This document shows, piece by piece, positions 2,810 through 31,015 of a DNA stretch of 33,992 nt. Below the pieces are notes generated by a model that worked only from the letters and a program-made list of their open reading frames with translations, was not told the DNA's origin and ran no database searches. Origin of the DNA: Kofleriaceae bacterium (GTDB lineage: Bacteria; Myxococcota_A; Polyangia; Haliangiales; Haliangiaceae); assembly GCA_025357755.1 (NCBI GenBank), contig JANXOP010000144.1, forward strand, positions 1 through 33,992, written 5' to 3'. Positions within the stretch are counted from its first letter, which is position 1; each line of letters opens with the position of its first letter. The position numbers and the translations under genes were made by a program.

Positions 2810-5647
2810 GTGATGGGTGGGCGTGGGAGTGGGATAGGAAGTCCGGGCGACACGCTCGCGCCGATCCTCCACGCCATCTCGCACGGCACCGGCGAATCGG
2901 GCGAGCTGATGACCGCCGCAGCGCAGTTCATTGCCGAGACCTTCGGTGGGGTCTGCGGCATCTCGATGATCACGGGGGACACCGCTCATCACGTCGCGGT
3001 CGGCGCCGTCCGCGCGGCGACCGCACGCGAGGCAGGTCACATCCAGCTGTTCGCGCGCGGCGAGCCCTCGCCGCTGGCCGGCGACGGCTTCATCGCGCGC
3101 GCGATTCGCCACGGCAAAGCCGAGATCGTCCAGATCACCGATGCGATGCTGCGCGTGACGTTCGCGAGCGACGCCGACTTCGAGGTCGCGCGCATGGTCG
3201 CCGCACCCGAAGCTATGTTCGTGCCGCTGCGAGCGCGCGGTCGATCGCTCGGCTGCTTCGCGGTCGCGCGCAACGGCTCGCACTCCCCCTTGTTCACGGC
3301 CGAAGACGTCGCGCACGCGAGCGCGATCGCGGACCGCTTTGCGGCCGCGCTGTTCGACGCGAAGCTGCTCGCCGACCTCGACCGCGACGTCGTCGTGCGC
3401 CGATCGATCGAGCGCCATCACCAGGTCCTGATGCAGCTCGCGCGCGAGTTCTCCGCGGCAACGGGCGGGCAACGCGCCCTGATCGACCTGGTGTGCCAAC
3501 GGTTCGCCGAGATCGTCGGCGACTGTTGCATCATCCGATTCTTCGAGAACGATGCGCTCGAACCGGCGCGCAGCGTGTTCCACGCCGACCCGAGGAAGGC
3601 CTCGCTGATGCGCGCGATGCTCACGGCGCCGCAGCGCTCGGGCCAAGGAATCTCTGGCGCGGTCATGAAGTCCGGCACGACGATGCGCGTGCACCACGCG
3701 ACGAGCGAGGCGCTCGCAAGCCAGCTCGGCCCGCCCGCCGATCACTGGATCCGCACGCTCGGTGTCTGTGCCGTGATGGCCGTGCCGCTGATGGCCGGCG
3801 AGCACGCGCTCGGCGTGATCACGCTATGGCGCCACGCCCCGAAACCGTTCACGGACGACGATCAGTTCCTCATCGAGAGCGCCACCGGGCACGCCGTCCT
3901 CGCACTGACGAACGCACGCTTGTTCGCGGAGACCCAGCGCGAGCTCGCCCATCGCGCGCGCATGGAAGAGCGGCTCAAGAAGCTGTCGCAGACCTCGCGC
4001 GAGCTCGCCGCCAAGACCAGCGATCTACGTGACCTGCTCGATACCGCGGCGCAACGCTTCGCCGAGCTCGTGGGCGACGCGTGCGTGATCCGGATGGTCA
4101 AGGAAGATGGCAAGACGTTCGAGCGTGGTGGCGCGATGTTTCATCTGGATCCCGAGGTCCTCGAGCTCGCCAGGCGCGTGTTCGCGTCGAGCGACCAGCG
4201 TCACGACGAAGGCATCGCCGGTCTCGTCGTCACCTCGCGCAAGCCGATCATCCTCAACACCACGAACGACGACATCGCATCGCGGATCCCGCCCGGCTAC
4301 GGCGACCTGATCCGCCGGATCGGCTTCACCAGCATGCTCGCCGTCCCGCTGATGTCGGGCGGTCGCGTGATCGGCGCGCTGACGATCGTCCGCACGCGCC
4401 ACTACACTCCCGACGATGTCGAGTTCGTGTGCGAGCTCGCGAACCACACCTCGCTCGCACTTCACAACAGCCGCCTGATCGCGGATGCGCATCGCGAGCT
4501 CGCCGAGCGCCGTCGCACCGAGGAGAGCCTGCGCCAGACCAAGGAGCAATTCCATCAGGCGCAGAAGATGGACGCGGTCGGTCGGCTCGCCGGTGGCATC
4601 GCCCACGACTTCAACAACCTGTTGACGGTCATCGTCAACGCATCCTCGGTCTTGCTCGAAGATCTGACCGAGCCGAGCTCGCGCCTCGACGTCGAGGATA
4701 TCCAGACCGCCGCGCATCGCGCCGCCGATCTGACCCGTCAGCTGCTCGCCTTCTCGCGCCAGCAGGTGCTCGAGCCGCAGATCATCGACCTCAATTCCAC
4801 GGTCGAGAAGATGCGCAAGATCTTCAGCCGCGTCGTCGGTGAAGACATCGCGATCATCGTGATCACGGGCCCGCACCTCGGCCACATCAAGGCCGACCCC
4901 GGGCACGTCAACCAGGTGATCATGAACCTCGTGGTCAACGCGCGTGACGCGATGCTCGGGGGCGGCACGCTCACGGTCGAGACGCGCGATGCGGTGACCG
5001 AGCACGGGCCCGTCGTCATGCTGTCGGTCACCGATACCGGCATCGGCATGGACGAGGCGACCCAGAGCCGGATCTTCGAACCGTTCTTCACGACGAAGGA
5101 CAAGAGCAAGGGTACGGGCCTCGGGCTCTCGACGGTGTTCGGCATCGTCGAGCAGAGCGGCGGTACGATGGCCGTGCACAGCAAGCCCGGTTGCGGCGCC
5201 ACGTTCGAGATCTTCTTCCCGCGTTGCGACGAGACGATCGAGGAAGCGTTGCCGGTAGAGAACCGCCCGCTGCGCGGGGGCGAAACGATCCTGCTCGTCG
5301 AGGACGATGCCCAGGTCAGGAAGGTCGCGACCGCGATCCTTCAGCGCTCGGGCTATCGCGTGCTCGCCGCCCAGAGTGGCCCCGATGCGATCCTCCAGTA
5401 CCACCAGCGCCTCGCCGAGGTCGACCTCTTGCTCAGCGACGTGGTGATGCCCGAGATGAGTGGGCGCGAGCTCGCCGACCGGCTCGGTACGATCCGGCCG
5501 GATCTGCGCGTGCTCTACATGTCCGGCTATACCGACGACGCGATCTCGCACCATCGCGTGCTCGACCCCGGTGTCGTGCTGGTCGCGAAGCCCTTCACCA
5601 AGGCTTCGCTACTCGACCGTGTTCGCGACGTGCTGTCGCGAACCTAG
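2810..5647 (+). CDS. Hybrid sensor histidine kinase: three GAF domains, HisKA, HATPase, receiver
   Basis: A 945-residue soluble kinase with no signal peptide or membrane segment. The order is GAF1 (about 15-185), GAF2 (about 210-375), coiled linker, GAF3 (about 405-560), coiled coil (565-590), HisKA with phospho-accepting His599 in GGIAHDFNNLL, HATPase with N box (NLVVNARDAM), G1 (DTGIGM), F box (FEPFFTTK) and G2 (GTGLGLS), and then a C-terminal receiver. The receiver has acidic EDD near 831-833, phospho-acceptor Asp877 in SDVVMPEMSG and Lys927 in AKPF. Everything needed for autophosphorylation and internal phosphotransfer is present. The kinase class (HDFNN) is typical of two-component hybrids with several N-terminal sensors. 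The start is GTG at 2810, with ATG at 2813 equally possible. Its stop TAG abuts the stop of the opposing OmpA gene with no spacer. The ligands of the GAF domains and any downstream partner are not evident. Confidence 0.95.
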   Translation: MMGGRGSGIGSPGDTLAPILHAISHGTGESGELMTAAAQFIAETFGGVCGISMITGDTAHHVAVGAVRAATAREAGHIQLFARGEPSPLAGDGFIARAIRHGKAEIVQITDAMLRVTFASDADFEVARMVAAPEAMFVPLRARGRSLGCFAVARNGSHSPLFTAEDVAHASAIADRFAAALFDAKLLADLDRDVVVRRSIERHHQVLMQLAREFSAATGGQRALIDLVCQRFAEIVGDCCIIRFFENDALEPARSVFHADPRKASLMRAMLTAPQRSGQGISGAVMKSGTTMRVHHATSEALASQLGPPADHWIRTLGVCAVMAVPLMAGEHALGVITLWRHAPKPFTDDDQFLIESATGHAVLALTNARLFAETQRELAHRARMEERLKKLSQTSRELAAKTSDLRDLLDTAAQRFAELVGDACVIRMVKEDGKTFERGGAMFHLDPEVLELARRVFASSDQRHDEGIAGLVVTSRKPIILNTTNDDIASRIPPGYGDLIRRIGFTSMLAVPLMSGGRVIGALTIVRTRHYTPDDVEFVCELANHTSLALHNSRLIADAHRELAERRRTEESLRQTKEQFHQAQKMDAVGRLAGGIAHDFNNLLTVIVNASSVLLEDLTEPSSRLDVEDIQTAAHRAADLTRQLLAFSRQQVLEPQIIDLNSTVEKMRKIFSRVVGEDIAIIVITGPHLGHIKADPGHVNQVIMNLVVNARDAMLGGGTLTVETRDAVTEHGPVVMLSVTDTGIGMDEATQSRIFEPFFTTKDKSKGTGLGLSTVFGIVEQSGGTMAVHSKPGCGATFEIFFPRCDETIEEALPVENRPLRGGETILLVEDDAQVRKVATAILQRSGYRVLAAQSGPDAILQYHQRLAEVDLLLSDVVMPEMSGRELADRLGTIRPDLRVLYMSGYTDDAISHHRVLDPGVVLVAKPFTKASLLDRVRDVLSRT

Positions 5648-19169: not shown

Positions 19170-19293
19170 GCGGATGAAGAGCGTGCTCTTCGTTGCTCTG
19201 CGGTTACCGCAGAGGCTGGATTCGAGATGCTGAGATCGACGGACGTCCCGCACTGCGCGAAGCGCAGGAACGGACGCGCCAAGACGAGACAGG

Positions 19294-19310
19294 TTGGAAC
19301 GTCGCCGCAC
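19294..19310 (+). repeat. Retron a2 arm
   Basis: Sequence TTGGAACGTCGCCGCAC, the inverted partner of a1, located just before the RT start codon. Confidence 0.85.
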
Positions 19311-19315
19311 ACTTC

Positions 19316-20665
19316 ATGACGTCGATGTCCAAGTTGCAGCACGCGCTGGCATCGGCACTCGTCGATGCGCCGTGGGATCGCGCCGCGCTCGCCGCGCGCA
19401 TCGTTCATGTCGTTGGTACGAGCGAGCGGTGGATCCACGAGCTCGCCGACGACCCGGTGCACGAATTGGCGAGCTCGGCGGACGCGCCCGGGGACGACTT
19501 CGATCCTGACGACGATGCCGCGTCCGACGAGCTGATCGATACGTACGGGCGGCTCGCCGCGTGGCTCGGGCGCCAGCCCGCCTTGGCCAAGGCGCTCCGC
19601 GCGGGCGTGCGAGTGGTTCGCCCGTGGATCGAGCCCGACGAGATGCGCGAGTCGCGGTGGGCCGTCCCCGCGTTACCCACCACCGGTGAGCTCGCGCGGT
19701 GGCTCGGCGTCTCGCATGCGCGCCTCGAGATCCTCGCCGACCAGTGGAACCTCTCGCGTGATTCGATCGATCCGCGGGCCCGCCACTATCGCTACACGTG
19801 GCTGCCGAAACGCACAGGCGGACATCGCCTGCTCGAGGCCCCGAAACCGACGCTACGTGGGATCCAGCGGTACCTGCTCGACGACATCGTCGCGCGGATC
19901 CCGCCACACGCCGCGGCGCACGGGTTTCGCACCGGGCACTCGGTGCGGACGTTCGCGCAGCCCCACGTGGGGCGCGAGGTCGTGATGCGCCTCGATCTCC
20001 ACGCGTTCTTCACCTCGATCACCGCGCCGCGCGTCGCGGCGGTCTTTCGCGCCGCCGGCTATCCCTTCTCGATCGCCGGGGTGCTCGCGGCACTCTGTAC
20101 GCACGCGCCACCGCACGACGTGATCGGATCGGCGCCCTCGCCCCAGGATCGCCGCCGGATGGCAGCTCGTCATCTGCCGCAAGGTGCACCGACGTCCGGC
20201 GCGCTCGCGAACCTTGTCGCGCATCACTTCGACGTGCGCGTCGCCGCACTCGCTGCCACGCTCGGCGCGAGCTACACGCGCTACGCGGACGATCTCGCGA
20301 TCTCGGGTCCTCGTTCACTCGCTCGTGCCGCCACGACGCTGATTCCACGCATCGGAGCGATCGCGATCGAAGAAGGCTTCGCGCTCAACTTCCGGAAGAC
20401 GCGCGTCATGAAGTCGTCGACGCGCCAGCGCCTGACGGGCCTTGTCGTCAACGAACGCCTCGCGATCGCACGCGCGGATCTCGAGGAACTTCGCGCGATC
20501 CTTCACAACTGCGTGCGCTTCGGACCGCACTCACAGAACCGCGCCAACGTGCCGGACTTTCGCGCGCACCTGCAGGGCCGCGTGTCGTGGGTGACCTCGA
20601 TCGACGCGAACAAGGGCGGCCGACTCGCGGCGCAGCTCGCGAGCGTCCAGTGGCCAACACCGTGA
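19316..20665 (+). CDS. Retron reverse transcriptase
   Basis: A 449-residue RT. An N-terminal extension of about 155 residues precedes the palm and fingers, a layout like the long myxobacterial retron RTs. The motifs are AAHGFRTGHSV before motif X (here FAQPH instead of the usual NAxxH), catalytic Asp227 in LDLHAFFTSI, PQGAPTSGALANL, and YADD (Tyr323-Asp326) with both Asp. The retron-specific VTG position reads LTG (374-375) in RLTGLVVN. It acts with the msr-msd RNA to make branched RNA-DNA. The start at 19316 is chosen because upstream codons lie inside the msr-msd element. The lipoprotein gene begins 25 bases downstream; no conventional toxin effector is adjacent. Confidence 0.94.
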   Translation: MTSMSKLQHALASALVDAPWDRAALAARIVHVVGTSERWIHELADDPVHELASSADAPGDDFDPDDDAASDELIDTYGRLAAWLGRQPALAKALRAGVRVVRPWIEPDEMRESRWAVPALPTTGELARWLGVSHARLEILADQWNLSRDSIDPRARHYRYTWLPKRTGGHRLLEAPKPTLRGIQRYLLDDIVARIPPHAAAHGFRTGHSVRTFAQPHVGREVVMRLDLHAFFTSITAPRVAAVFRAAGYPFSIAGVLAALCTHAPPHDVIGSAPSPQDRRRMAARHLPQGAPTSGALANLVAHHFDVRVAALAATLGASYTRYADDLAISGPRSLARAATTLIPRIGAIAIEEGFALNFRKTRVMKSSTRQRLTGLVVNERLAIARADLEELRAILHNCVRFGPHSQNRANVPDFRAHLQGRVSWVTSIDANKGGRLAAQLASVQWPTP

Positions 20666-26360: not shown

Positions 26361-27437
26361 ATGTCGGTGATGAAGGTCCTGTACGGAGTCACGGGTGAAG
26401 GAATGGGCCACGCGATGCGATCGCGCGTCGTGCTCGAGCACCTGTTCCGCGCGGGCCACGAGGTCGAGATCATGGCCTCGGGCCGCGCGGCGGAGTTCCT
26501 CGCCAAGCGGTTCGAGGGCGTCAACACGATCCACGGCCTGCACATGATCCTCGAGGAGAATCGCGTGCGGCCGGGCAAGACGCTGTGGTCGAACGTACTC
26601 AACGGCGTGCTCGGCGTGCCGCGCAACATCGAGGCGTACTTCGAGCTGATCGCCGCATTCGAGCCCGAGGTCGTGATCAGCGACTTCGAGTCATGGACCT
26701 ACTATTACGGCCGGACCCATCGCCTGCCGATCCTCTCGATCGACAACATGCAGGTGATCCATCGCTGCGAGCTTCCAGCCTCGATCATCGAAGGCAACCA
26801 GGTCGCGTTCCAGGTCACGAAGGCGTTCATCAAGTCGAAGCTGCCCTCGTGCGACGCGTACTTCATCACCTCGTTCTTCCGGCCGCCACCGCGCAAGCCC
26901 GACACGTTCCTGTTTCCGCCGATCCTCCGCCCCGAGATCCTCGCTGCCAAGCCGACCGCCGGTGATCACTTGCTCGTCTATCAATCGGGCCCGAACTCGG
27001 CGCTACAGAGTGCGCTCGCGGCGACGGGCATCGAGTGCAGGATCTACGGCATGCGCCCCGGTATCACCGAGGAGCAGCGCGAAGGCCGGCTCCACTTTTT
27101 GCCGTTCGCGGAGGCTGGCTTCATCTCGGACCTCGCGAGTTGCCACGCCGTGATCGCTGGCGGTGGCTTCACGCTCATGGGCGAAGCCGTCTTTCTCCAC
27201 AAACCGATGCTCGCGCTACCCATCGAGCGCCAGTTCGAGCAGTGGCTCAACGCCCAGTACCTCGAGCGTGAAGGCTACGGGATGTGCACGCTCACGCTGG
27301 ACGATCCGGGAGTGCTCCCCGCGTTCCTCGAGCGCATCCCGGACTGTGCCGCGAAGCTCGCGAGCTACACGCAGACCGACAACAGCGAGCTGCTGACCGC
27401 GGTCGATGCGTTCTTGAGCTCGCGCATGGTCACCTAG
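26361..27437 (+). CDS. GT-B-type glycosyltransferase, MJ1255/VC2487-like
   Basis: A 358-residue protein. An N-terminal Gly-rich start VLYGVTGEGMGHAMRSRVV matches GT-B nucleotide-sugar transferases (GT1/GT28-like). The C-terminal domain contains AVIAGGGFTLMGEAVFLHKP, the donor-binding region, followed by PMLALPIERQFEQWLNAQYL. This combination resembles the MJ1255/VC2487 family. It probably transfers a sugar to a lipid, natural product or polysaccharide. The start may be ATG 26361 or ATG 26370. Confidence 0.85.
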   Translation: MSVMKVLYGVTGEGMGHAMRSRVVLEHLFRAGHEVEIMASGRAAEFLAKRFEGVNTIHGLHMILEENRVRPGKTLWSNVLNGVLGVPRNIEAYFELIAAFEPEVVISDFESWTYYYGRTHRLPILSIDNMQVIHRCELPASIIEGNQVAFQVTKAFIKSKLPSCDAYFITSFFRPPPRKPDTFLFPPILRPEILAAKPTAGDHLLVYQSGPNSALQSALAATGIECRIYGMRPGITEEQREGRLHFLPFAEAGFISDLASCHAVIAGGGFTLMGEAVFLHKPMLALPIERQFEQWLNAQYLEREGYGMCTLTLDDPGVLPAFLERIPDCAAKLASYTQTDNSELLTAVDAFLSSRMVT

Positions 27438-27503
27438 CGCACGGCACCCGGTCACTAGCGTCCACCTCCGTGCGCGGTGGCTGCGATCGTAGTAGAGCTA
27501 GCC

Positions 27504-28445
27504 ATGCCTCGCCTCCTGGACGCGCTGCTCGGGCCCTTCGTACCACTGTCGTTCGGCCGACCGGGGCTGTGGCTCCGCGGGCGGAGCTTCGCGGAGCTTG
27601 CGCGACTCGACGGTCGCCACGCGATCGTCACCGGCGCGAACAGTGGGATCGGCCGCGCCGCCACCGAGGCGCTCGTCGCGCTCGGCGCGCGGGTCACGAT
27701 GGTCTGCCGCGATTCGTCGCGCGCGGAGCTCGCGCGGGACGAGATCGTACGCGCGACCTCCGCAGGTGCGCGGCTCGCGATCGAGCTCTGCGATGTCGCG
27801 CGCCAGGGCGAGGTGGCCGCGCCCGCCGCGCGCCTCGACGATCCGATCGACATCGTGATCCACAACGCGGGCGTCCTCCCGGCGCACGAGGTGATCACAC
27901 CAGATGGCATCGAGCTGACCTGGGCGACCCATGTCGTCGGGCCGCACCTCCTGATGCGCCTGCTGCGGCCGCGATCCACAGCGGCCACACGGCACGTGCT
28001 GGTGTCGTCGGGTGGCATGTACCTCGCCGCACTGCCAGCGCCCGGACGGGTGCCCACGCCGTACGATGGCGTCCGCGCCTACGCCGAGACCAAGCGCGCG
28101 CAAGTCGCGCTCGCCACCCTGTGGGCCGAGCACGATCCCGAGGGGCCGCGCGTGGTCGCGATGCACCCGGGCTGGGCCAACACCACCGCAGTGCAAACCT
28201 CGCTGCCGCGGTTCCACGCGCTCATGCGCCCGCTGCTGCGTGCCCCCGGCGGCGGCGCGGATACGCTCGCGTGGCTCGGCACCATCCCGATCGACGCGCT
28301 GGTCCGCGGCGGCTTCTACTTCGATCGCGCGCCCCGACCGACGCACGTGCTGCCGTGGGGTCACGATCCCGCGCCGCGCAAGGCCGAGCTGTGGCGCTGG
28401 CTCGAGTCGATCACCCAGGACCACGTCGACGACGCGAGGCGTTGA
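27504..28445 (+). CDS. Short-chain dehydrogenase/reductase (DHRS12-like)
   Basis: A 313-residue SDR. An N-terminal extension (MPRLLDALLGPFVPLSFGRP) precedes the cofactor loop TGANSGIG. The sequence also has NAG in IHNAGVLP, catalytic Ser in LVSSGGMY, and Tyr193/Lys197 in YAETK. A basic residue after strand 2 (VCRDSSR) suggests NADP. The lengthy form resembles DHRS12-like retinol-dehydrogenase-type SDRs. It follows the glycosyltransferase by 66 bases. Confidence 0.92.
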   Translation: MPRLLDALLGPFVPLSFGRPGLWLRGRSFAELARLDGRHAIVTGANSGIGRAATEALVALGARVTMVCRDSSRAELARDEIVRATSAGARLAIELCDVARQGEVAAPAARLDDPIDIVIHNAGVLPAHEVITPDGIELTWATHVVGPHLLMRLLRPRSTAATRHVLVSSGGMYLAALPAPGRVPTPYDGVRAYAETKRAQVALATLWAEHDPEGPRVVAMHPGWANTTAVQTSLPRFHALMRPLLRAPGGGADTLAWLGTIPIDALVRGGFYFDRAPRPTHVLPWGHDPAPRKAELWRWLESITQDHVDDARR

Positions 28446-28480
28446 AATGGTCGGGGGCTAGATCGCCGAGCTCGTGCGCG

Positions 28481-28936
28481 CTAGCCGCTTCCCTTCTCGA
28501 CCGGCTTACCCGCCTTGGTCCAACCCGCGATGCCCTGCGGCATGATGAAGACGTTCGTGTAACCGAGCTTTTCCGCTGCGACCGCAGCGGTGTGGCAGGC
28601 GTGTCACGTCTCGTTGTGACAGTAGAAGACGAGTAACGCATCCTTCGCGGGCGGCAGCGCCGCGGCGGTGACGTTCTCGTCGTCGATCCACGTCGCGGTC
28701 GGCACGTGACCGCCGATCCAGCTGTCCTTGGTATTCGCGTCGAAGATGAACGTCTTGCCATCGTGCGCGGCAATCTTTGTTTCGACCTCGTCGATCGTCA
28801 TCGACTTGAGCGCGGCGGCGCTCGGCTCGGCCTTCGGGGCGGTGAGCTTGGGCTCGGAGTCGTTGCTCGCCTTCGAGCAACCGAGTGGCGCCATCGCGGC
28901 AGCGCCCGCAAGAAACAGAGCCAGGGTTCGGTTCAT
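28481..28936 (-). CDS. Rhodanese-like selenoprotein, exported (in-frame TGA as Sec111)
   Basis: A 151-residue rhodanese-like protein if TGA 28604-28606 is read as selenocysteine. N-terminal signal MNRTLALFLAGAAAMAPLGC with a possible lipid-anchor Cys. The rhodanese core has SMTIDEVETKIAAHDGKTFI, then DANTKDSWIGGHVPTATWID and FYCHNET-U-HACHTAAVAAEK, GYTNVFIMPQGIAGWTKAG. The active-site loop of this family normally has Cys at the TGA position. The reading frame stays conserved after TGA to TAG 28481. A hairpin like a bacterial SECIS begins 13 bases after TGA. Rhodaneses transfer sulfur; Sec would make a more reactive nucleophile. Selenocysteine machinery is outside the window. Confidence 0.8.
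28573..28590 (-). promoter_or_regulatory. SECIS-like hairpin after the in-frame TGA
   Basis: On the minus strand CCGCTGC-GGTC-GCAGCGG forms a 7-bp stem with a GGTC loop. The loop starts 21 bases after TGA. The E. coli fdhF SECIS also has a GGUC apical loop at about the same distance and shares UGACACG at the start. It overlaps coding sequence, as in bacteria. Confidence 0.68.
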
Positions 28937-29232
28937 CGGTGTAGCGTACCCAATTCCCGCGGGGTCCTGATCCGCTTCGTCCATGAGACTTCGACTTGCG
29001 CAGCGCGTCGTCGAGGTCGCCGCGGCAACCCGCCAATGCGCGAGGTGGTGGTGGCCGTCGCGGACCGCGATGCGATGGTCTCGCAGAACAAGATCAGGCA
29101 GCCGCGAGCTTCGCGCGCGAAGCGCTCATGTGCGACGAACCCGAGCGGTCCCACCGCGAACTTTGGTCGCCGTGGATACTGCGGCGAAACGCGGAGTCGC
29201 TTCTACTAGCGTTGATGACGCTCGCGAGCCTC

Positions 29233-29700
29233 ATGACTTCGATGCTCGGCCATCCGCGATGCCCGGCGCGCGCGTGGCTTCGCTTCCTCTGCCTCGTCGT
29301 GATGAGCGCGTGCGTCCACACGGCTCATCCCGCTCAGACACCTGGCGACGCGCTCGCCGCATATCGCCAGTCCGTGCTGGCGATGGACATCGACTCGACT
29401 GCCGAGCTACTCGAACCCGATGCGCAAATTCATCACGCCGATCAGGCGCCGGTCGTCGGCCGCGCCGCGATTCGCAAGTTCCTAGAGACCTTCCGCGCGT
29501 ATCACGTCACGGCGTACGTGATCGACGCGGCCTCGACCGTCGTGACTGGCGACACCGCGACGCAACGAGGCAGCTACCATCAAGAGGTAACGGGTCCCGG
29601 GGGCGAGGCGATTCACGCCGACGGGGTGTTCGAAGCGAGCTGGCATCGCGATGGGGACGGGCGGTGGAGGATCGCCCGCATGCACACCAATTCGCGCTAG
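29233..29700 (+). CDS. NTF2-like (SnoaL/DUF4440) lipoprotein
   Basis: About 155 residues from ATG 29233 (ATG 29242 also possible). A signal with RFLCLVVMSAC ends in a likely lipobox Cys. The mature part has the cone-shaped NTF2-like fold: GDALAAYRQSVLAMDIDST, LEPDAQIHHADQAPVVGRAAI, RKFLETFRAYHV and a final WRIARMHTNSR. These proteins either bind small ligands or act as isomerases. The substrate is unknown. Confidence 0.75.
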   Translation: MTSMLGHPRCPARAWLRFLCLVVMSACVHTAHPAQTPGDALAAYRQSVLAMDIDSTAELLEPDAQIHHADQAPVVGRAAIRKFLETFRAYHVTAYVIDAASTVVTGDTATQRGSYHQEVTGPGGEAIHADGVFEASWHRDGDGRWRIARMHTNSR

Positions 29701-30046
29701 AGGGATCAGTTTGCTCGACTCGACCCACGAGCGCGACGCCAGGATGTCGGGCTGGTCTGAAGCGTGATCCGAACGTGCGCGATCTCGTGGTGGCGCAGCG
29801 AATACCGCCGCTTACGTTGTGCGAGCGGGGGGACTCGAACCCTGATGCGACCTCGCGAGAACCCCCAACTTCTCGCGACCCTGCAATGACCACGCGGGGT
29901 TGCATCAGCGGTTCATCCTGCCGTGTCTGCCGTGATCCGACGTGATCTGCCGAGGTGTGGCAGCCACGTGGCAGCGGATGCTCTTCGATCACGGCTCCTC
30001 TCACAGTCGCAGACGTCTTAAGTGAAGAGCCGGCGTGCAGCTTCAC
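29701..30046. other. Noncoding interval with tRNA-like T-arm, hairpin and short repeats
   Basis: This 346-base gap has no convincing gene. On the minus strand 29842-29821 contains GGGTTCGAGTCCCCCCGCTC, resembling the T-arm and acceptor 3' end of a tRNA. However, the T-stem pairs only 3 bp and no rest of a tRNA is present. A perfect 9-bp hairpin lies at 29853-29861/29870-29878 with an 8-base loop. Direct repeat ctgccgtg occurs at 29918 and 29927, and palindrome GCCACGTGGC at 29963-29972. These features fit an attachment scar of an excised element. Confidence 0.45.
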
Positions 30047-31015
30047 TCATCCGTCGAGTGCGGCGAGATCCTCGGCAGCAAGCCGCGGATCCCAGAGCGC
30101 GATCCGACGCCGAAGCTCCGCACGATCCGCCTCATCGTGCGGGTGGAGATCGTCCGGCGACGAGGTCAGCGTTTCGAACGGCCCGAGATACAGGAGCGCG
30201 TCGCCGAGCTCGCCCATGCGGCGCTCGCACGTGTCGAATGGATCGTAGGTCGAGCCGTCCATCTTGGTCAGTGTCCGGCCGCCGAGAAACGCACCGGCCG
30301 GCAGGTCGTCGATCCAGCTGCCGGCGATGTGCGCCAGCAATGGCACCGAGTACGTCGCAAGCTTCGTCGCGATCGCCACTCGATCGCGTGGCCGCAGATT
30401 GTCGTGAGGAAGGACGACATATGTCGATCCAGGATGATCACGCTCGAGGATCTGCACGAGACCGGTGCCGGGCGTAAATGGTGGCCACGTGGCCTTGAAC
30501 AGGTGATACGCGCCGGCGAGCACCAGCGCGCGTTTGCCGCAGCGGAGAACCTCGCTCTCGACGACGCGCGCGAAGTGAGCATCACGATCCTCGAGCGCGG
30601 TCGCGAGATCTTGCCACGTCCGCGCGGAGGACCAGTCCAACGGCGGGTCGCCTAGAAGCACGCGAGTGCGACGCTTCGCGGGCAGCGTCTGGTTGACCTC
30701 GCGCACGGTCGCGAAGAACCGCGGATAGATCGGCGCGCGGAAGCCCCACGGCCCCGCACCGGCGAAGTCCTGCCAGATCTGCCTCAGCTCGGTCGACGCG
30801 ACATCACCGCCCGCGACGTACGCGTCGCAGATGGCCTGATGTCGCGCGTTGCCGAACTCGACGACGATCGCGTCGACATTCTCCGAGAACCGGAGGTCGC
30901 GCACGAGATCCTCGACGAAGCGAGCGCCCTGCTCGACACCGTGCATCTCGCCAAGTGCGACGATCGGATGCGTGTCAAACCGGTCGACCAAGTCGCGCAC
31001 GCCATCGCCAGCCAT
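30047..31015 (-). CDS. Tiki-superfamily (ChaN/EreA/TraB-like) protein
   Basis: A 322-residue protein. An early motif VALGEMHG with a following FVEDL helix, then IVVEFGNARHQ and later GKRALVLAGAYHLFK, give the paired E-x-x-H and G-x-x-H pattern of the Tiki/TraB/erythromycin-esterase superfamily. Several acidic and His residues would form a metal or catalytic site. The highly polar C terminus ends DPRLAAEDLAALDG. Start ATG 31015. The substrate is not inferable; antibiotic esterase and haem-related roles occur in relatives. Confidence 0.7.
   Translation of the reverse strand: MAGDGVRDLVDRFDTHPIVALGEMHGVEQGARFVEDLVRDLRFSENVDAIVVEFGNARHQAICDAYVAGGDVASTELRQIWQDFAGAGPWGFRAPIYPRFFATVREVNQTLPAKRRTRVLLGDPPLDWSSARTWQDLATALEDRDAHFARVVESEVLRCGKRALVLAGAYHLFKATWPPFTPGTGLVQILERDHPGSTYVVLPHDNLRPRDRVAIATKLATYSVPLLAHIAGSWIDDLPAGAFLGGRTLTKMDGSTYDPFDTCERRMGELGDALLYLGPFETLTSSPDDLHPHDEADRAELRRRIALWDPRLAAEDLAALDG

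Follow-up and report, generated by a model that had tools for sequence, protein, structure and literature searches.

A rhodanese gene on the minus strand of contig JANXOP010000144.1 of a Kofleriaceae bacterium (33,992 nucleotides, the whole stretch of DNA analysed and hereafter the window) is interrupted by one in-frame TGA, which raised the question of whether this codon is read as selenocysteine (Sec) and, if it is, which place in the active site the Sec occupies. The coding sequence extends from an ATG at 28936 to a TAG at 28483-28481 (28481..28936) and would encode 151 amino acids including Sec111, the TGA at 28606-28604 being the sole interruption of the frame. An earlier sequence-only reading of the locus had noted that the frame continues beyond the TGA, that a CxxxxUxxC spacing results and that a hairpin with a 7-bp stem and the loop GGTC follows, and each of these observations was borne out. 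The frame past the TGA is a single uninterrupted one of 151 residues, the Pfam Rhodanese domain (PF00581) was matched across the TGA (residues 57-141, E 4.1e-12, 46.9 bits relative to a cut-off of 22.2), the motif CxxxxUxxC is made up of C106, U111 and C114, encoded on the minus strand at 28619..28621, 28604..28606 and 28595..28597, respectively, and the hairpin lies at 28590-28573, its loop 20 nt past the TGA.

The amino-terminal codons (28877..28936, minus strand) encode a putative lipoprotein signal peptide, MNRTLALFLAGAAAMAPLGC, with Cys20 as the lipidation site predicted from sequence. This signal-like leader ends in APLG ahead of that cysteine; PLGC is a weak lipobox, and the nearest relative (L010) has VLGC. 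A crude custom lipobox pattern missed the window gene and matched 20 of the 43 Sec and 46 of the 54 cysteine (Cys) relatives described below. The rhodanese of the window is likely exported, and it is probably a lipid-anchored, single-domain protein. The flanks of approximately 1.5 kb showed no conserved neighbouring gene, and Rfam gave zero matches over positions 27400-29800. Elsewhere in the window are a reverse transcriptase gene (19193-20665, plus strand; RVT_1, E 1e-17), a gene whose hybrid product combines GAF, histidine kinase and response regulator domains (2810-5647, plus strand) and one for a ChaN/Tiki-type haem-binding domain protein (30047-31015, minus strand; Cofac_haem_bdg, E 3.9e-7).

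Homologues with Cys or Sec at the TGA position were sought in three overlapping sets of genomes, with matches in 48 of 56 genomes (E <= 0.001), 167 of the 317 genomes of the class (E <= 1e-10) and 63 of the 377 genomes of the phylum (E <= 1e-22). After fetching and duplicate removal, 97 distinct sequences scoring at least 60 bits made up the family set. At the column of the TGA, 43 of them, from thirty-five genomes in eight families, had TGA and the remaining 54 had Cys, with no other residue present. Three positions later, where the window protein has Cys114, the Sec sequences had Cys (34), Ser (8) or Gly (1) while the Cys sequences had Ser (40), Cys (11) or Ala (3). Both types were found together in ten genomes including that of the window. 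The nearest relative of the window gene, L010 from genome G015, was 60% identical to it and the two grouped together, joined more loosely by genomes from families f14 and f25. One of the Cys-type relatives was a gene of an uncultured Myxococcales bacterium, which makes Myxococcota the probable phylum, and plasmid records gave a single match, a Deinococcus rhodanese of 39.5% identity. A second Sec-rhodanese clade of ten sequences (L069, L043, L020, L040, L044, L049, L074, L021, L041 and L076) was present in the genus of the window, with a loop that mostly reads CSGPGUHSCH. These sequences lacked an evident signal peptide and are therefore perhaps a cytoplasmic form; the class-wide homologue search found no copy of this clade in the window's own genome. 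L128 (genome G430) and L129 (G390) each had a tandem pair of the family's rhodanese domains within a single frame, and both domains were of the Cys type.

One alternative to Sec is that a Cys codon, TGC or TGT, was converted to TGA by mutation or sequencing error and that the carboxyl terminus is decaying. TGC and TGA are one base apart and Cys homologues exist, but the same TGA recurred in 43 sequences from 35 genomes and, as shown below, a hairpin accompanied TGA and not Cys. Decay on the two sides of the TGA was looked for relative to L010 and was not found: dN/dS was 0.221/0.808 (about 0.27) over the 48 codons before the TGA and 0.117/0.569 (about 0.21) over the 38 codons after it. This comparison indicates that purifying selection acts on the codons after the TGA, and the pseudogene or error explanation is highly improbable. 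A second alternative, that the TGA is read as some other amino acid through near-cognate suppression or a general code change, would account for the frame continuity by readthrough alone. It is at odds with Cys being the only alternative residue in the 97 sequences, with TGA serving as a normal stop in the window genome, where it ends selA, selD and four of eight window genes checked, and with the presence of tRNA-Sec, selA, selB and selD; it has a similarly negligible probability. We therefore rejected a pseudogene, a sequencing error and a change of code on the strength of the 97-sequence column, the purifying selection and the use of TGA as a normal stop.

The machinery for Sec incorporation, absence of which would count against a selenoprotein, was present throughout in the window genome (90% complete, 5.7% contamination), with matches to selB (322 bits, over the cut-off), selA (504 bits), selD (319 bits) and a tRNA-Sec (69 bits) with the anticodon TCA as determined by ARAGORN. 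Among the matches listed, selA was found in 29 of the 30 class genomes with the TGA form, with 28 over the cut-off and one, in G146, a fragment, compared with 117 of the other 287 genomes of the class (Fisher p 6e-10, relatedness being ignored and the matches listed being the basis). The best tRNA-Sec match scored 59-80 bits in 29 of the 30 TGA-form genomes. Genome G001, which is 73% complete and has a TGA gene, gave no selA match and a tRNA-Sec match of only 40 bits. Four genomes with the Cys form (G308, G309, G314 and G315) had no selA match and yet had tRNA-Sec matches of 47-50 bits. The Rfam tRNA-Sec cut-off alone is non-discriminating, since 39 of the 40 genomes exceed it, these four among them. 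In family f36, selA was found in all five Sec genomes and all six Cys genomes tested, and selA alone is thus no predictor of the Sec form.

The hairpin of the window gene (28573..28590, minus strand; CCGCTGC-GGTC-GCAGCGG) has a 7-bp stem and the loop GGTC at 28583-28580. The bacterial SECIS (bSECIS) model, as set out in passages of PMC13188914, has an apical loop of 3-9 nt with a G in one of the first two places, a stem of 4-16 bp, a distance of 16-37 nt from the UGA and a minimum free energy (MFE) of -7.5 kcal/mol or lower. The window hairpin agrees with this model, with a 4-nt loop, 7 bp, a loop start 20 nt past the TGA and -18.1 kcal/mol over the 48 nt after the TGA. Taken by itself it was not significant, as 10 of 200 dinucleotide shuffles folded equally well (z -1.83) and 19% of synonymous recodings of the gene also gave a stem of at least 7 bp there. 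The hairpin evidence is weak for the window gene alone and strong only across the family.

Across the family, stems of at least 6 bp whose loop starts at +20 and carries a G in one of its first two places occurred in 31 of 38 Sec sequences, against 4.1 expected after synonymous recoding; among the Cys sequences the count was 1 of 46, against 0.5 expected. Both counts were made before the f36 sequences were added. When any start from 16 to 37 was allowed, 41 of 43 Sec sequences had the hairpin against a mean of 17.0 and a maximum of 27 in 200 synonymous rounds, while the Cys sequences (8 of 54) were close to the 9.3 expected. Those counts apply to loops of 3-9 nt; loops of 3-7 nt gave 40/43 and 7/54. 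Folding energy over the 48 nt after the site did not separate the two types (mean z -0.49 for Sec and -0.35 for Cys), and calling by MFE found a bSECIS-like hairpin in 36 of 38 Sec sequences, where 27.2 were expected, and in 24 of 46 Cys sequences, where 21.5 were expected. Separation of Sec from Cys emerges once stem length and register are required.

The best register among the Sec sequences was +20 in thirty-four, +21 in five, all of family f36, and +26 in four, all of family f24. The +20 stem was only 5 bp in L052, L079 and L085, and for L079 and L085 no qualifying hairpin was found at other starts from 16 to 37. In the f24 Sec genes (L100, L101, L103 and L104) the hairpin had the loop GGC at +26 and not at +20. 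Base pairs of the hairpin differ among the genes through compensating substitutions at third codon positions. Pair 17-26, for example, is T-A in the window gene (GCT/GCA) and C-G in L010 (GCC/GCG), all four codons coding Ala, and is a double synonymous compensatory change. The eighth codon after the site was GGG, GTC, GTG, CGG or CGT in all 43 Sec genes and in none of the 54 Cys genes.

With the homologues, the sel genes, the hairpin counts across the family and the signs of purifying selection all in agreement, the part of the earlier interpretation that concerned Sec incorporation stood, and we have high confidence that the UGA would be decoded as Sec111 by SelB and tRNA-Sec at the downstream hairpin. 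The other part, in which the TGA replaces the nucleophile of the loop, did not stand. Nucleophile replacement was ruled out by alignment to solved rhodaneses: the cysteine of FYC, C106, falls on the catalytic cysteine in the YC of 6mxv, a solved rhodanese, and all 97 sequences have Cys at this position. The claim is unsupported because C106 is the catalytic cysteine and the TGA follows five residues later (C+5), at the loop end.

The active-site loop is defined in PMC8533005, in the passages used here, as six residues starting with the nucleophilic cysteine, and the window protein has such a loop, which reads C106-HNETU. In yeast RDL2 the loop is CAKGVR, from C106 to R111, with Arg111 as the loop end and required for sulfur uptake from thiosulfate, and thiosulfate use likewise needs the loop-end residue in DUF442 and human TST (passages of PMC8533005). 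Sec111 is the sixth and last residue of the loop, the place at which classical rhodaneses carry Arg, Thr or Ser (8, 3 and 2, respectively, of the 13 structures surveyed in the same passages). The loop-end Arg, Thr or Ser of a classical thiosulfate sulfurtransferase was found in none of the 97 sequences, which all had Sec or Cys there; Arg was found at this position in three more distant matches (L037, L038 and L058). An AlphaFold model built from two sequences, the window protein and L039, was poor overall (mean pLDDT 59.6), with blocks of 74-81 for residues 101-140. It has a strand at 101-105, the loop and a helix at 112-123, and U111 would therefore immediately precede the helix, with C114 falling within the first helical turn. 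Foldseek with this low-confidence model returned rhodaneses among the best matches.

The Sec label required eight changes on a tree of the family, at least five of them on starred branches, the tree having been built by a quick search from 126 columns with the two trait columns left out and having 37 of 94 inner branches open. The relatives thus appear to switch between selenium and sulfur at the loop-end position, and to have done so five times or more. In genus g22, Sec is found in G126 (FYCYNEHUHACH) while G044 and G052 have Cys (FYCYNEHCHASH) and lack the hairpin, and within genus g76, G146 has Sec while G145, G147 and G149 have Cys. Over five independent pairs drawn across supported branches, a number with which p 0.05 is unreachable, the hairpin went with Sec in 4.3 pairs on average, with the opposite in 0.0 and no difference in 0.7, and the +3 Cys went with Sec in 2.3, with the opposite in 0.2 and no difference in 2.5.

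Anaeromyxobacter is a myxobacterium. For A. dehalogenans eleven selenoproteins have been described, and no rhodanese is among those listed in the table of PMC1794560. A 2026 review tabulates five rhodanese selenoprotein forms with the motifs UxxS, UxxG, CxU, UxxG and UxxxxU; 'CxxxxU', 'Myxococc' and 'Polyangia' were not found in its main text by word search (PMC13188914), nor were rhodanese or Myxococc in the available part of PMC12013277. Further literature on known forms includes the part of PMC9312934 covered here. No Myxococcota selenoprotein rhodanese was found in a literature search of partial coverage, and the CxxxxUxxC Sec motif was not found in the literature searched.

Rhodanese-like form 1 (PF00581, UxxS, WP_010941598.1) is, in the tabulated part of PMC13188914, a rhodanese domain with Sec as in the window gene, and differs, comparing motifs only, in being UxxS where 34 of the Sec sequences, that of the window included, are UxxC. 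Because 8 of the 43 Sec sequences here are UxxS, form 1 may use the same loop-end site. TsoB (NF045694, UxxxxU), which resembles a rhodanese/DsbD fusion, has a motif that, as tabulated in part, suggests a loop-end Sec as in the window protein, with Sec also at the nucleophile place where the window protein has Cys. Ranked by E-value, NF045694 came first among the NCBIfam matches (9.5e-12 over residues 80-148), at 43.8 bits against a cut-off of 805 for its 572-position fusion model. Rhodanese form 3, or rhodanese_LYCAU (NF041203, CxU), shares a Sec in the active loop, situated, by the tabulated motif, two residues after the Cys rather than five as here, and scored 34.2 bits against a cut-off of 115; TsoX (NF045809) scored 13.9 bits against 52. 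The Sargasso Sea and GOS surveys list a 'Sulfurtransferase homologous to a rhodanese-like protein' along with further Sec sulfurtransferases, which are likened here by description, as cases of Sec in rhodanese relatives (parts of PMC2398784, PMC1088965 and PMC5029168, the last a table row that gives the figures 24 and 25). Yeast RDL2 and E. coli YgaP, both classical single-domain rhodaneses, have the fold, loop and nucleophilic Cys in common with the window protein but differ at the loop end. The Cys paralogue of the same genome (L045, G000 C38; FYCGNTHCSASH) also has a leader and one rhodanese domain, with a loop-end Cys and a +3 Ser in place of Sec111 and Cys114. Six family members, five of the Sec type and one of the Cys type, were scanned with NCBIfam and no model listed reached its cut-off, so we expect that such genes are likely annotated as truncated rhodaneses.

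What the Sec does is less certain than its presence. Our tentative preference, held at somewhat below even odds, is for a cell-envelope persulfide or disulfide reductase of the redox type, and not for a thiosulfate:cyanide sulfurtransferase. In such an enzyme Cys106 would accept sulfane sulfur, or attack a disulfide or polysulfide, and Sec111 at the start of the next helix would resolve the Cys106 adduct by forming a selenenyl-sulfide, a step that sets free sulfide or a reduced thiol. In turn, Cys114 would free the Sec111 selenol and hand the oxidation to an outside reductant. Absence of the +3 Cys from 9 of the 43 Sec sequences counts against redox-pair chemistry. An unlikely alternative is that Sec111 serves ordinary sulfurtransferase chemistry, replacing the loop-end Arg or Thr to cleave thiosulfate or carry sulfane sulfur with Cys106 as the acceptor. 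The retained fold and nucleophile agree with this, as does the need for a loop-end residue for thiosulfate in the three enzymes of PMC8533005 named above; however, the 54 non-Sec sequences have Cys at the loop end and not Arg, Thr or Ser, and the +3 Cys in 34 of the 43 Sec sequences is a better fit to a redox pair. Less likely again is selenium or metalloid handling, in which Sec and Cys would act as ligands or carriers for selenide, arsenite or a metal. Three soft ligands lie within one loop region, the protein is probably exported and no conserved neighbour in the flanks of approximately 1.5 kb points elsewhere, but conservation of the rhodanese nucleophile speaks against it.

Rhodanese selenoproteins are thus already known in several forms, one of which (UxxS) may have its Sec at the same site. 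New as far as checked are the CxxxxUxxC motif, the lineage, the Sec/Cys changes numbering at least five and hairpins in three registers. The joint reading, only just short of an even chance in our estimation, is that of a three-chalcogen CxxxxUxxC redox rhodanese of the envelope, with at least five gains or losses of Sec at the loop end, SECIS elements in the registers +20, +21 and +26, of which +21 and +26 would be separate inventions, and a hairpin that would dictate residues of the protein. With Sec/Cys pairs available within genera g22 and g76, what Sec costs and what it brings can be tested directly on proteins that are close relatives, and so can the way in which a SECIS element arises within a coding region.
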